Below the pieces are notes generated by a model, which worked only from the letters and a program-made list of their open reading frames with translations, did not search any database and had not been told where the DNA came from. A stretch of DNA of 64,000 bases from Streptomyces sp. NBC_01353 (lineage in GTDB: Bacteria > Actinomycetota > Actinomycetes > Streptomycetales > Streptomycetaceae). The stretch lies in the NCBI RefSeq assembly GCF_036237275.1, contig NZ_CP108352.1, positions 3,286,001 to 3,350,000 on the forward strand. The letters run 5' to 3'. The translations under genes and the position numbers were made by a program. Within the stretch, counting starts at the first letter, position 1. Each line of letters starts with the position of its first letter. Positions 54,190-57,958 of this stretch are shown here, one piece after another.

Positions 54190-54600
54190 TCAGCCGAGGA
54201 CCGCGAGAGCGTCGATCTCGATGAGGAGCCCCTTGGGGAGGCCGACGTAGACCGTCGTACGCGCCGAGGCGGGCGTCTTGAGGCCCTGCTCCTCGAAGTA
54301 GGCGTTGTAGATCTCGTTCATCTCGGCGAAGTGGTCGACGTCGGTGAGGTAGACGCGCGTCATCATCACGTCGTCCCAGCTCGCGCCGCCCTCCTCCAGG
54401 ATCGCCTTGACGTTGGCGAAGGTCTGGAGGGTCTGCTCGCGCAGCGTCGGGCCGGCCGGGGTGGGCGCCTGGCCCTCGACGGCGGGGAGGAAGCCGACCT
54501 GGCCGGCGACCTGGAGGATGTTGCCCTTCTTGACGCCGTGCGAGAACTTCGCGGGCGGGGCGGTGTGGGTGGCGGGAGTGAGGGCGATCTTCTCGGTCAT
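54190..54600 (-). CDS. ridA: RidA family enamine/imine deaminase
   Basis: 136 residues, a trimeric RidA/YjgF/UK114 protein that hydrolyses the reactive enamines released by PLP-dependent deaminases to 2-keto acids. Conserved positions are seen: GNILQVAGQVGF, then TLQTFANVKAILEEGGAS, VMMTRVYLTDVDHFAEMN, and the substrate Arg in PASARTTVYVGLPKG. The ATG overlaps the IclR stop by 4 bases (ATGA), and the deaminase it would serve is encoded divergently. It is followed by a hairpin then the permease. Confidence 0.92.
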   Translation of the reverse strand: MTEKIALTPATHTAPPAKFSHGVKKGNILQVAGQVGFLPAVEGQAPTPAGPTLREQTLQTFANVKAILEEGGASWDDVMMTRVYLTDVDHFAEMNEIYNAYFEEQGLKTPASARTTVYVGLPKGLLIEIDALAVLG

Positions 54601-55358
54601 GTCCGGTCCTTGGTAGGGGCGTTGCCTGAGTAGTCCCGGCTGATGGCGTCGGCGGTGCGGCGCACCAGCGGGAGCAGGGTGAGGAGTTCCTCGGCGGTCA
54701 CGACCACATTGGGTGCCGAGACCGACATGGCGGCGACGACGCGGCCGTCGGCGCCGCGGATGGGGGCACCGATGCAGTTGATGGACTCCTCGTGGCCACC
54801 GAGGTCGGTGGCCCAGCCCTGTTCGCGTACGGTCGCCAGCTCCTTGAGGAAGGCGGCGGCGTTGGGGATCGAACGGGGCGTGTACATGGGGTAGTCGAGC
54901 TTGGCGGCGATGGCGCGCCGCTCGGGCTCGGGCAGGTCGGCGAGCAGCAGCTTGGCGACGGCGGCGACGGTGATCGCGACGGGCTTGCCGATACGGGAGT
55001 ACATCCGGACCGGGTAGCGGCTCTCGACCTTGTCGATGTAGAGCACCTCGCCCTCCTCGTGGACCGCGAGGTGGACGGTGTGTCCGATCTGCTCGTTGAG
55101 CGCGGCGAGGTGGGGGTGGGCGATCTCGCGGATGTCGAGGTTCTCGACGGCTTCCTGGGCGAGGGCGAAGAGGCGGGCGCCCAGGCGGTAGCGCTGGTCC
55201 TGCTGGCGGTAGACGAGCCCGTGCTCGTGCAGGGTGCGCAGCAGCCGGAGCGCGGTGGACTTGTGCACCCCGAGCCGGTCGGCGACCTGCCCGAGGTCGG
55301 CGGGGCCCTGTGCGAGCAGCGGCAGGATGCTCAGCGCGCGGTCGACGGTCTGGCTCAT
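54597..55358 (-). CDS. IclR family transcriptional regulator
   Basis: 253 residues. Winged HTH (about 1-65): SQTVDRALSILPLLAQGPAD, QVADRLGVHKSTALRLLRTL, HGLVYRQQDQRYRLG. The effector domain has the usual GAF-like core, EEGEVLYIDKVESRYPVRMYSRIG and NCIGAPIRGADG. It is embedded in the D-amino-acid operon, overlapping both the kinase and ridA by 4 bases. A 19-bp palindrome between the divergent arms is its likely binding site. Confidence 0.94.
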   Translation of the reverse strand: MSQTVDRALSILPLLAQGPADLGQVADRLGVHKSTALRLLRTLHEHGLVYRQQDQRYRLGARLFALAQEAVENLDIREIAHPHLAALNEQIGHTVHLAVHEEGEVLYIDKVESRYPVRMYSRIGKPVAITVAAVAKLLLADLPEPERRAIAAKLDYPMYTPRSIPNAAAFLKELATVREQGWATDLGGHEESINCIGAPIRGADGRVVAAMSVSAPNVVVTAEELLTLLPLVRRTADAISRDYSGNAPTKDRT

Positions 55359-56548
55359 GACGTACGTACCTCCTGGTCCTCCCCCGTCCAGCCGGGGCCG
55401 AGGTGAAGTCTCCCCCAGCCCTCGTCGTCGAGAGCGACGAGCCGGTCGGCGTGTGCGGTACGGGCAGGGGCGCCCAGATCACCGGGGACGGTGAGCGCGG
55501 CGGCGGCCATGAGGTGGCCGTGCCGGATCCGCGCCCGCACGCCGAGCCCCCGGAGGGTGCCGGAGAGGAAGCCGGCGGCAAAGGCGTCCCCGGCCCCGAC
55601 GGGCGCGACGACGTCGACGGTGGGGGCGGCCACGAATGTCACGGTGTCGGGTGCGGGCGCGTGGGGGCCGCTGCGCGGGGCCTCACCCCGCCCCGCCCCT
55701 TCCCGAGACTGGGGCTCCGCCCCAGACCCGGTTGGGGGTCCCCCCGCGTCCGCAGGGCGTAGGGGGACTGCGGCCGCGTCCTCAAACGCCGGACGGGCTG
55801 AAAAGCCGGCGCAGCGCTCGAAGACCACCGCGCCCCGCCCACCCTGCTTCACGACCAGTACGTCAGGCTCGGGCAGCGCACCCCGGACCGCCTCCGGCCC
55901 CATCACCCCCCACGCCTCCTCCGCCTCGTCCTCCCCCACGAACACCAGGTCCGCGCCCCGCGCGAGCTCCAGGAGTACCCGGGGTCCCGACCCGTCGCGC
56001 CACAGCCCGGCGCGGAAGTTCACGTCGAAGGAGACGACCGGCCGACCCGCCCGCGGCGCCGTCAGCTCACGCATCAACCCGAGACAGTCGTCCGACAGCG
56101 CGGCGGTGATCCCGGACAGGTGGAGCACCCGCCCGTCCGCGACGGAGTCGTACGGCACCGTCGCCGGCGACATCGCCGACGCCGCCGACCCCGCCCGGTA
56201 GTACGCGACCTCGTGCGCCGCCGTCGCCCGGTCCGTCGCGGTACGGAAGTAGATGCCGGTCGGCCGGTCGGCGTCCCGCCCCACGGCCGACACATCGACC
56301 CCGTACGCGGCGATCGTCTCCACGAGGTGGTCGCCGAAGCCGTCCGCCCCCACCCTGCTCACCCACTTCGCCCGGTGCCCCGCCGCGGCCAGTGCGCAGG
56401 CCACGTTGGACTCGGCGCCGCCGATGGCGCGGGCGAACGAGGGGGCGTCGGCGAGGCGGCCCGGCCGGGAGGGCAGAAAGGTGACCATGGACTCACCGAG
56501 GCAGACGACATCCACGGGTGGCGCGTCCACGGGCGGGCATCCGGTCAC
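55355..56548 (-). CDS. PfkB family sugar kinase (KDG kinase-like) with in-frame repeat insertion
   Basis: 397 residues, longer than the usual ~310-340. The PfkB fold is clear: VVCLGESMVTFLPSRPGR at the start, GGAESNVACALAAAG, NFRAGLW, VFVGEDEAEEAWG, KQGGRGAVVFE, and the catalytic GAGDAFAAGF with Asp321. It resembles 2-dehydro-3-deoxygluconokinase. Between residues 246 and 300, where relatives run straight from the strand VVFER into VAAPTVDVV, sits about 55 residues of Pro/Gly/Ala-rich sequence encoded by a Streptomyces-type repeat (separate entry). The insertion is near the nucleotide-binding loop, so activity is uncertain. ATGA overlap with iclR. Confidence 0.88.
   Translation of the reverse strand: MTGCPPVDAPPVDVVCLGESMVTFLPSRPGRLADAPSFARAIGGAESNVACALAAAGHRAKWVSRVGADGFGDHLVETIAAYGVDVSAVGRDADRPTGIYFRTATDRATAAHEVAYYRAGSAASAMSPATVPYDSVADGRVLHLSGITAALSDDCLGLMRELTAPRAGRPVVSFDVNFRAGLWRDGSGPRVLLELARGADLVFVGEDEAEEAWGVMGPEAVRGALPEPDVLVVKQGGRGAVVFERCAGFSARPAFEDAAAVPLRPADAGGPPTGSGAEPQSREGAGRGEAPRSGPHAPAPDTVTFVAAPTVDVVAPVGAGDAFAAGFLSGTLRGLGVRARIRHGHLMAAAALTVPGDLGAPARTAHADRLVALDDEGWGRLHLGPGWTGEDQEVRTS
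55649..55813. repeat. Streptomyces-type GC-rich intergenic repeat inside the PfkB coding sequence
   Basis: The section contains CCCCGCCCCTTCCCGAGACT, GGGGCTCCGCCCCAGACCCG and CCTCAAACGCCGGACGGGCT, phrases I know from a family of repeats scattered between genes in many Streptomyces genomes. Here it lies in the coding strand, in frame and without stops, as about 165 bases (55 codons). Boundaries are estimated from where the kinase family alignment breaks. Confidence 0.7.
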
Positions 56549-56633: not shown

Positions 56634-56652
56634 CGTTGCACACAATGCAACG
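56634..56652. promoter_or_regulatory. IclR-type operator between the divergent D-amino-acid gene arms
   Basis: CGTTGCA-CACAA-TGCAACG is a perfect palindrome with 7-bp arms. It lies 16 bases before the deaminase ATG and 85 bases from the kinase start, in the only intergenic space between the two arms. IclR regulators bind palindromes of this kind, so IclR (54597-55358) is the likely ligand. Confidence 0.7.
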
Positions 56653-56668
56653 CCTTGGAGGAGGCCCC

Positions 56669-57958
56669 ATGCAGCAGCCGCAGCCCACACCCACCCAGCA
56701 GCTGGCGGACGAGCGCGTCGACCACCGCTTCAAGGCCCTGCCCCCGGACGCCGAGGGCCTGACTGTGGGCGAGCTGGCCGCCCAGCGCCGCAACCTGTTC
56801 ACCGGCGGCTTCACCACCCCCGTCCTCGCCCTCTCCGCAGAGTCCGTCGAGCACAATCTGCGCCTCCTGGAGATCTACGCCGAGCGCCACGGCCTCGCCT
56901 TCGCCCCGCACGGCAAGACCTCCATGGCGCCGCAGCTCTTCGACCGCCAGCTGGAGCACGGCGCCTGGGGCATCACCGCCGCCGTCCCGCACCAGGCCCG
57001 CGTCTACCGCGCGCACGGCATCGCCCGGATCTTCCTCGCCAACGAGCTCGTCGACGCTCCCGCCCTGCGCTGGCTGGCCTCCGAGCTCGACGCGGACCCC
57101 GACTTCCGCTTCGTCTGTTACGTCGACTCCGTGCGCGGGGTCGAGCTGATGGACGCGGCGCTCACCGAGGCCGGCGCCCGCCGCCCCGTGGACGTCGTCG
57201 TCGAGCTCGGCGCCGGCGAGGGAGCCCGTACCGGAGCCCGTACGGAGGCCGACTGCACGGCCGTCGCGGACGCCGTCGCGGCGACCACGACGCTGCGCCT
57301 GGTCGGCGTCGCCGGCTACGAGGGCGAGGTTCCGCAGGCCACGCCCGAGCGGGTGCACGACTGGCTGAACCGCCTCGTCTCCCTCGCCGCCGACTTCGAC
57401 AAGGGGGGCCGGTTCTCCCCCGAGATCGAGGAGATCGTCGTCAGCGCGGGCGGCAGCGCCTGGTTCGACGCGGTCGCCGACGTCTTCGCCGGTATCCCCG
57501 AACTCTCCCTCCCCGTACTGAAGCTCCTGCGTTCCGGTGCATACGTCTCGCACGACGACGGCCACTACCGGCACCTCACCCCCTTCAACCGGGTCCCCGA
57601 GGAGGGCACGCTGCAGCCCGCGTTCCGGCTCTGGGCCCAGGTCGTCTCGCGTCCGACGCCCGAGCAGGCGTTCACCAACGGGGGCAAGCGCGACGCCGCG
57701 TACGACCTGGACCTGCCCGAGGCGCAGGTCGTCCGCGACGGCCGTACGGGCGCGGTCCGCCCCGCCGACGGCATCGCGGTCACCGGCCTGTCCGACCAGC
57801 ACGGCTGGGTACGGACGGAGCAGGGCGCCGAGCTGGAGGTCGGTGACTGGCTGGGCATGGGCCTGTCCCACCCGTGCACGTCCTTCGACAAGTGGCAGCT
57901 GATCCCGCTGGTCGAGGCGGACGGCACGGTCGTCGACTACATCCGTACCTTCTTCTAG
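56669..57958 (+). CDS. PLP-dependent amino acid deaminase (D-serine dehydratase-like, alanine racemase fold)
   Basis: 429 residues. A fold-type III PLP enzyme; Lys83 in FAPHGKTSMAPQLF holds the cofactor. The C-terminus has His401 and Cys403 in LSHPCTSFDKWQL, which in eukaryote-type D-serine dehydratases bind zinc. It should eliminate ammonia from D-serine, D-threonine or a related 3-hydroxy D-amino acid to give an enamine that RidA clears. The ATG at 56669 has GGAGGAGG before it; an ATG at 56636 is overridden by that. It is 14 bases before the deacylase gene. Confidence 0.88.
   Translation: MQQPQPTPTQQLADERVDHRFKALPPDAEGLTVGELAAQRRNLFTGGFTTPVLALSAESVEHNLRLLEIYAERHGLAFAPHGKTSMAPQLFDRQLEHGAWGITAAVPHQARVYRAHGIARIFLANELVDAPALRWLASELDADPDFRFVCYVDSVRGVELMDAALTEAGARRPVDVVVELGAGEGARTGARTEADCTAVADAVAATTTLRLVGVAGYEGEVPQATPERVHDWLNRLVSLAADFDKGGRFSPEIEEIVVSAGGSAWFDAVADVFAGIPELSLPVLKLLRSGAYVSHDDGHYRHLTPFNRVPEEGTLQPAFRLWAQVVSRPTPEQAFTNGGKRDAAYDLDLPEAQVVRDGRTGAVRPADGIAVTGLSDQHGWVRTEQGAELEVGDWLGMGLSHPCTSFDKWQLIPLVEADGTVVDYIRTFF

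Follow-up and report, generated by a model that had tools for sequence, protein, structure and literature searches.

Palindromic repeats lie in frame in a variable linker of a PfkB-family kinase across Streptomyces

Results

A KDG-kinase-like gene with a long linker

The window, by which we mean the whole 64-kb stretch of DNA analysed here, carries a PfkB-family kinase gene on its minus strand (Table 1). A PF00294 match in two stretches (E = 6.9e-47, the best covering 13–255) and the GAGD motif place the product in the PfkB family, and GAGDAF is invariant in 40 of 40 aligned kinase rows. The kinase appears closest to 2-dehydro-3-deoxygluconokinases (KDG kinases): its top NCBIfam match is KDG_KDGal_kin, and a profile search of the PDB ranks 1v19 first (E = 1.9e-59), a 2-keto-3-deoxygluconate kinase from Thermus. 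The NCBIfam score of 156 bits lies below the curated cut-off of 400 for this equivalog (NF040938), and therefore we make no substrate call. By Pfam, the kinase has IclR, Ribonuc_L-PSP (RidA) and GntP genes to one side; an amidohydrolase and the D-serine dehydratase-like gene lie to its other side. The neighbourhood marks the kinase genes of 109 relatives (L013–L092 and L138–L166) as orthologs: the D-serine dehydratase-like gene is kept in 109 of 109, IclR in 108 and RidA in 103, while the counts for the farther amidohydrolase (77) and GntP (59) are limited by the stretch covered.

Table 1. Features of the kinase locus in the window
Feature	Position	Strand	Basis or remark
IclR-type regulator adjoining the kinase	54597..55358	minus	Pfam; orthology marker
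PfkB-family kinase gene, 397 codons	55355..56548	minus	ORF list, Pfam, NCBIfam, PDB profile
GAGDAF motif of the kinase	55580..55597	minus	3' of the insert, in the same frame
Hypervariable linker, 77 codons, directly 5' of GAGDAF	55598..55828	minus	
Family-A repeat, one arm of a palindromic element	55648..55800	minus	Own-genome BLAST, HMM, core pattern
Hairpin-like repeat of 35 nt inside the family-A arm	55733..55767	minus	Own-genome match
Family-A core CAGCCCGTCCGGCGTTTGAGGAC	55778-55800	minus	Pattern match
D-serine dehydratase-like gene, divergent from the kinase	56636..57958	plus	Pfam PF14031; orthology marker

In the alignment to 1v19, only a few residues separate 'AWAFVDGR' and 'VEGSAF' at the place of the linker, which presumably forms the turn of a β-hairpin in the PfkB fold. 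Compared with the 27 codons of the insert-free relative L015, the window linker has an excess of 50. The first-pass annotation had proposed a stop-free, in-frame insertion of about 55 codons at 55649–55813. Its location agrees with the insert to within about 15 nt and the kinase ORF indeed has neither stop nor frameshift; extra codons are present, at a count of 50.

The insert is a family-A repeat with a second repeat inside

The insert sequence has 12 BLAST places in its own genome, itself counted. One alignment covers 153 nt, with window positions 55800–55648 matching C1:3435501–3435622 at 69% identity with gaps. An HMM of family A, built from non-kinase copies only, gave a single match in the window (55810–55769, E = 3.5e-11). 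The core, CAGCCCGTCCGGCGTTTGAGGAC, occurs once in the 64-kb window at up to three mismatches and in none of 100 shuffles; the own genome holds few matches at that threshold, four with itself counted. A 35-nt piece (55767–55733) is absent from the copy at C1:3435501–3435622 and finds a 94% match elsewhere in the own genome (L225), with more matches in L011 and L012. Because this piece is missing from the aligned family-A copy and stands alone elsewhere, it was probably nested into the element. Family A has dispersed copies across the genus and own-genome copies outside the kinase, and at the level of sequence these comparisons confirm the insert as a Streptomyces interspersed repeat of family A that encloses another, short hairpin repeat.

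As RNA, the region has a somewhat better fold than shuffled sequence (z = −2.2, with 6 of 200 shuffles as good). Five repeat sequences folded as DNA showed no clear advantage over shuffles (z −1.6 to 0.0), and Rfam gave nothing at gathering score across 55400–56000, its one sub-threshold match reaching 14.3 bits against 70. A structured RNA was rejected on the Rfam result and the DNA folds.

Four repeat families and low-complexity tracts occupy the same linker

We compared 109 linkers, comprising 80 orthologs (the best 80 of 305, by tblastn), the window gene and 28 of 30 loci drawn from 61 genomes, of which 31 had a kinase match. Left out were L137, which is the window gene again, and L138, in which the motif differs; L138 reads GAGDGF in place of GAGDAF, with a linker that is long and in frame. 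Linker length ranges from 22 to 153 codons with a median of 32, and 63 orthologs have short linkers of 22–35 codons. Every one of the 109 is a multiple of three in length. Since tblastn favours in-frame genes, the 80 loci that it supplied count against our main reading in this respect; the 109 include 19 loci (L148–L166) whose search match stopped before the downstream core.

HMMs of four families, built from copies outside the kinase (52 A, 52 B, 19 C and 18 D), detected repeats in 26 of the 109 linkers: A in 10, B in 7, C in 11 and D in 5. The carriers include two near-identical pairs, L028/L142 and L048/L145. The reversed linkers, block-shuffled linkers and downstream pieces, 109 of each, gave no match. 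Among the 109 upstream pieces there were 2 matches, both being in-frame inserts in other loops. These are a family-A insert in L092 and a family-D insert in L053. On the reversed and shuffled controls we reject chance resemblance, with some background for family C. Family A lies in plus orientation in the window, L072 and L149, in minus orientation in L013, L021, L034, L038 and L165, and in both in L014 and L066. The families and the low-complexity expansions sit at varying offsets within the linker.

Another 20 of the 109 have long linkers in which no repeat was recognised; length must therefore also come from sources other than repeat capture. By eye, the linkers of L044, L065, L074, L140, L144 and L147 have grown by low-complexity or tandem peptide repeats, with no match to families A–D.

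The first-pass annotation took the repeat to be a Streptomyces type. Two observations that could have spoken against this came out otherwise: the sequence is not shared by the orthologs of other genera that were compared, all three of which (L080 from Embleya, L088 from Nocardiopsis and L091 from Actinacidiphila) have short linkers without a repeat, and copies outside the kinase are plentiful in Streptomyces. The linker holds a dispersed repeat in frame, in a selected gene, with some orthologs lacking it, as in protein-coding palindromic repeats of the RPE kind.

Long, repeat-bearing linkers are peculiar to this ortholog

Among 98 PfkB matches in six genomes, 93 run through the linker place, and the five that stop there are all this ortholog. 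Four of the 93 exceed the model length by more than 15 residues: the ortholog with the family-A insert, L300 (which has a normal segment here), and L298 and L299 (unreadable by motif). L298 and L299 are PfkB paralogs of one genome that are about 28 residues longer than the Pfam model, which counts against our main reading. The 38 PfkB loci fetched represent 35 distinct genes, 34 of them paralogs; none of these 34 contains families A–D, the sole match being the ortholog. The linker segment was readable by motif in 24 of the 38 loci and unreadable in 14. Readable segments are mostly 32–38 residues long, with two of 15 and 24, and that of the ortholog, present twice among the 38 loci, has 61. Ordinary variation of PfkB loops is not supported as an explanation, given paralog segments mostly of 32–38 residues.

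Families A–C are rare in genes and family D is not

Genome-wide, family A has 2,168 core matches at up to two mismatches in 43 of 50 genomes, with none for the reversed pattern. In 50 genomes, family B has 2,547 matches (reversed pattern, 3), family C 231 (reversed pattern 18, hence some background) and family D 368 (reversed pattern, 0). Where the kinase of a genome carries B, C or D, copies of that family are more numerous in the genome than in those of non-carriers (one-sided p = 6e-4, 1e-5 and 2e-3, in tests that ignore kinship). A kinase insert of family A is not predicted by the copy number of that family (p = 0.13, in a test that likewise ignores kinship), which counts against our main reading, as does the small number of family-A copies in the own genome.

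Outside the kinase, coding-like frames hold 2 of 52 sampled family-A copies, 0 of 52 B copies and 1 of 19 C copies; for random window positions the figure is 140 of 300. The samples are non-random and from few genomes, and the random positions come from one genome. One further C copy, the kinase itself in S. antibioticus (L169), was left out of the 19. With 50 of 52 sampled copies outside coding-like frames, family A bears out the annotation's description of a normally intergenic repeat type. A first, non-uniform test had given 2 of 52 for A, 0 of 52 for B, 1 of 20 for C and 6 of 18 for D; it scored the L169 kinase copy as not coding-like and so misses real cases. Family-A copies in coding-like frames lie in a CobB-like protein (L207, by Pfam) and in a protein without identification by family search (L219).

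Family D is about 36 bp long, and its consensus is stop-free in all six frames. Among sampled copies, 19 of 38 lie in coding-like frames that are open through the repeat, compared with the same 140 of 300 random positions; in S. canus V4I20 this holds for 14 of 26 copies (of 28 matches). By eye, all six frames of the repeat occur in ORFs. Copies in coding-like frames, each in mid-locus, are found at L187, L188, L191, L194, L195, L199, L200 and L206, and at L305, L306, L308, L311, L312, L315, L316, L317, L319, L320 and L321. The host proteins include an MFS transporter, a MarR-GNAT protein, a GH43 enzyme and a solute-binding protein (by Pfam), as well as acyl-CoA dehydrogenases and a LacI-type regulator (by PDB). 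For an acyl-CoA dehydrogenase with family D, the alignments to two solved enzymes of its kind show a gap of 12 residues. In the solute-binding-protein gene the insert measures 36 nt, and 16 of 17 readable relatives have an empty site (20 loci from 41 genomes, 3 unreadable). Two species, at L277 and L306, carry family D at the same site of this gene, beside GATGGGGG, which either common descent or a target preference might explain. In plasmid records, all 14 family-D matches are in Streptomyces; 0 of 12 in annotated records fall under a listed gene, which speaks against a general liking for genes, the annotation there being incomplete.

Families A–C are rare in genes and D lies in them about as random positions do, a contrast which suggests that the length of a repeat and its stop codons contribute to whether it can reside in genes. 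Family B runs against this rule, as only one of its six frames is closed, yet no gene copy outside the kinase was found in the sample.

The kinase is under purifying selection on both sides of the insert

In 11 chosen insert-bearing pairs, dN/dS is 0.07–0.35 upstream and 0.13–0.39 downstream of the linker; in 8 chosen insert-free pairs it is 0.10–0.39 and 0.07–0.37, respectively. The parts flanking the insert are under purifying selection. Within the linker of the 11 pairs, where alignment is less certain, dN/dS is 0.33–1.08. One of these pairs is L066/L069, in which L069 has a remnant only, below HMM scoring. The gene of L165 has frameshifts in its N-terminal part, and its linker, with a family-A remnant, is still in frame with the C-terminal part.

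The window clade probably shares a larger ancestral insertion

On a tree built from the kinase with the linker removed, in which 44 of 106 inner branches were drawn open for low support, the presence of any repeat needs at least 12 gains or losses. The minimum per family is 5 for A, 4 for B, 6 for C and 4 for D; these parsimony counts ignore kinship and do not separate gains from losses. The first-pass annotation had described one insert; the case is not a one-off, as other families fill the linker in other species.

L014 has both family-A arms, its left half resembling L013 (S. gardneri) and its right half the window, as judged by eye. The window insert appears to be one remaining part of a bigger palindromic insertion that L013, L014 and L149 share with it. 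L016 and L017 have apparent decayed family-A peptides, again by eye, and L015 and L148 lie inside the same clade without a repeat. For the window clade, one insertion with in-frame trimming is the simplest account. It fits the window, L013 and L014 better than independent insertion in every case, which we reject for this clade.

Discussion

We consider it highly probable that a family-A element was inserted into this gene and trimmed in frame, leaving a tolerated loop in a working kinase whose permissive linker collects repeats. The palindromic repeat would have entered the turn in an ancestor common to S. gardneri, Streptomyces sp. Root431 (L014) and L149. Frame-keeping deletions would later have trimmed it, leaving one arm in the window species and mainly the opposite arm in S. 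gardneri. Translation of the insert is probable and would add a GC-rich, unstructured loop of some 50 residues to the kinase; the enzyme would still be active, and the repeats themselves may be mobile. The linker may be the enzyme's most permissive place in Streptomyces, where inserts would survive when they keep the frame and bring no stop, while those in the rest of the gene seem for the most part not to persist. Such permissiveness towards in-frame, stop-free inserts would explain why different lineages appear to have filled the linker with genome-borne repeats of families A, B, C and D and with low-complexity expansions. As a rough guide, were the searched parts of the gene equally permissive, a split of 12 linker changes to 2 inserts elsewhere would have a probability of 2.5e-12, with every change counted as an insertion.

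That the insertion instead broke the kinase and left a decaying pseudogene could be suspected from its place immediately before the GAGDAF motif, and from the N-terminal frameshifts in the relative L165. We regard this as very improbable and rejected it on dN/dS and the conserved frame: the window ORF is free of stops and frameshifts, dN/dS is low on either side of the insert in carriers, and the frame is intact in 109 of 109 linkers. The annotation had offered a choice between a tolerated insert, to be seen as repeat domestication, and a broken gene. The gene does look intact by frame and dN/dS; "domesticated" overstates the case, as no sign of a function of the insert was found and linker dN/dS is above that of the rest of the gene. 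Selection of the inserted sequence for a role, for example as an intragenic mRNA hairpin or a kinase-tuning peptide loop, would accord with the folding of the region's RNA and with the many species that carry inserts. It sits poorly with the mixture found at a single place (repeats of unrelated families, in either orientation or as partial arms, and low-complexity tracts), with the linker dN/dS of 0.33–1.08, and with the insert-free L015 and L148 inside the same clade, and we think such a role improbable.

The hotspot might also reflect insertion preference rather than protein tolerance, the repeats sharing a DNA target in the kinase gene. The solute-binding-protein gene offers a precedent, with family D at an identical site in two species beside the same short sequence. 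In the kinase, four unrelated families and low-complexity expansions sit at differing linker offsets, and two more in-frame inserts (L092 and L053) lie in other loops; a shared target is in our judgement unlikely. Related species hold unrelated in-frame repeats in the same kinase loop, apparently without breaking the enzyme.

A wider proposal, which we hold to be evenly balanced, is that Streptomyces hosts frame-neutral coding repeats, that short palindromic repeats keep supplying its proteins with new loops, and that family D has been shaped by survival in genes. It builds on the family-D length of about 36 bp, a multiple of three, on the stop-free consensus with all six frames in use, and on a kinase linker that accepts even families A–C, otherwise rare in genes. 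The kinase loop forms a natural replicate series, with four repeat families, many species and insert-free relatives beside carriers, and a single assayable kinase makes it testable whether inserts are neutral, harmful or useful. Among the literature matches listed (titles and abstract starts, with most subscription journals outside coverage), no report of in-frame repeats in Streptomyces proteins was found, and a search for the repeat letters found no paper. Among the same matches, Streptomyces as host genus, several families converging on one loop, and a frame-neutral family D are apparently undescribed.

The likenesses to known systems are drawn from description in the papers cited. Intragenic REPs of the GTAG and CGTC families, which mark "REP-decorated proteins", are established for several other bacteria; they are palindromic, 20–40 bp long, mostly intergenic and in some cases intragenic, and Streptomyces is absent from the main text of that paper (PMC3733652). 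The Streptomyces repeats are similar by description, being short, palindromic, mostly between genes and sometimes within them. MITE-like ERIC/RU-1 and the short Correia form have open frames and are small repeats fused in frame to genes (PMC2229807), a likeness that holds here with approximate repeat boundaries. The closest parallel is with the Rickettsia palindromic elements (RPEs), short palindromic repeats that lie in frame in conserved protein genes and are apparently tolerated; a guanylate kinase carrying one is active with changed substrate affinity (PMC2229807, PMC10969869). The kinase repeats are alike in being palindromic, in frame and apparently tolerated, as far as descriptions can be compared. 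RPEs are 105–146 bp long (PMC2229807), against about 36 bp for family D. The finding brings large GC-rich genomes into the range of protein-coding palindromic repeats; it differs from the RPEs in its organism and in that, here, four families converge on one enzyme loop across a genus.
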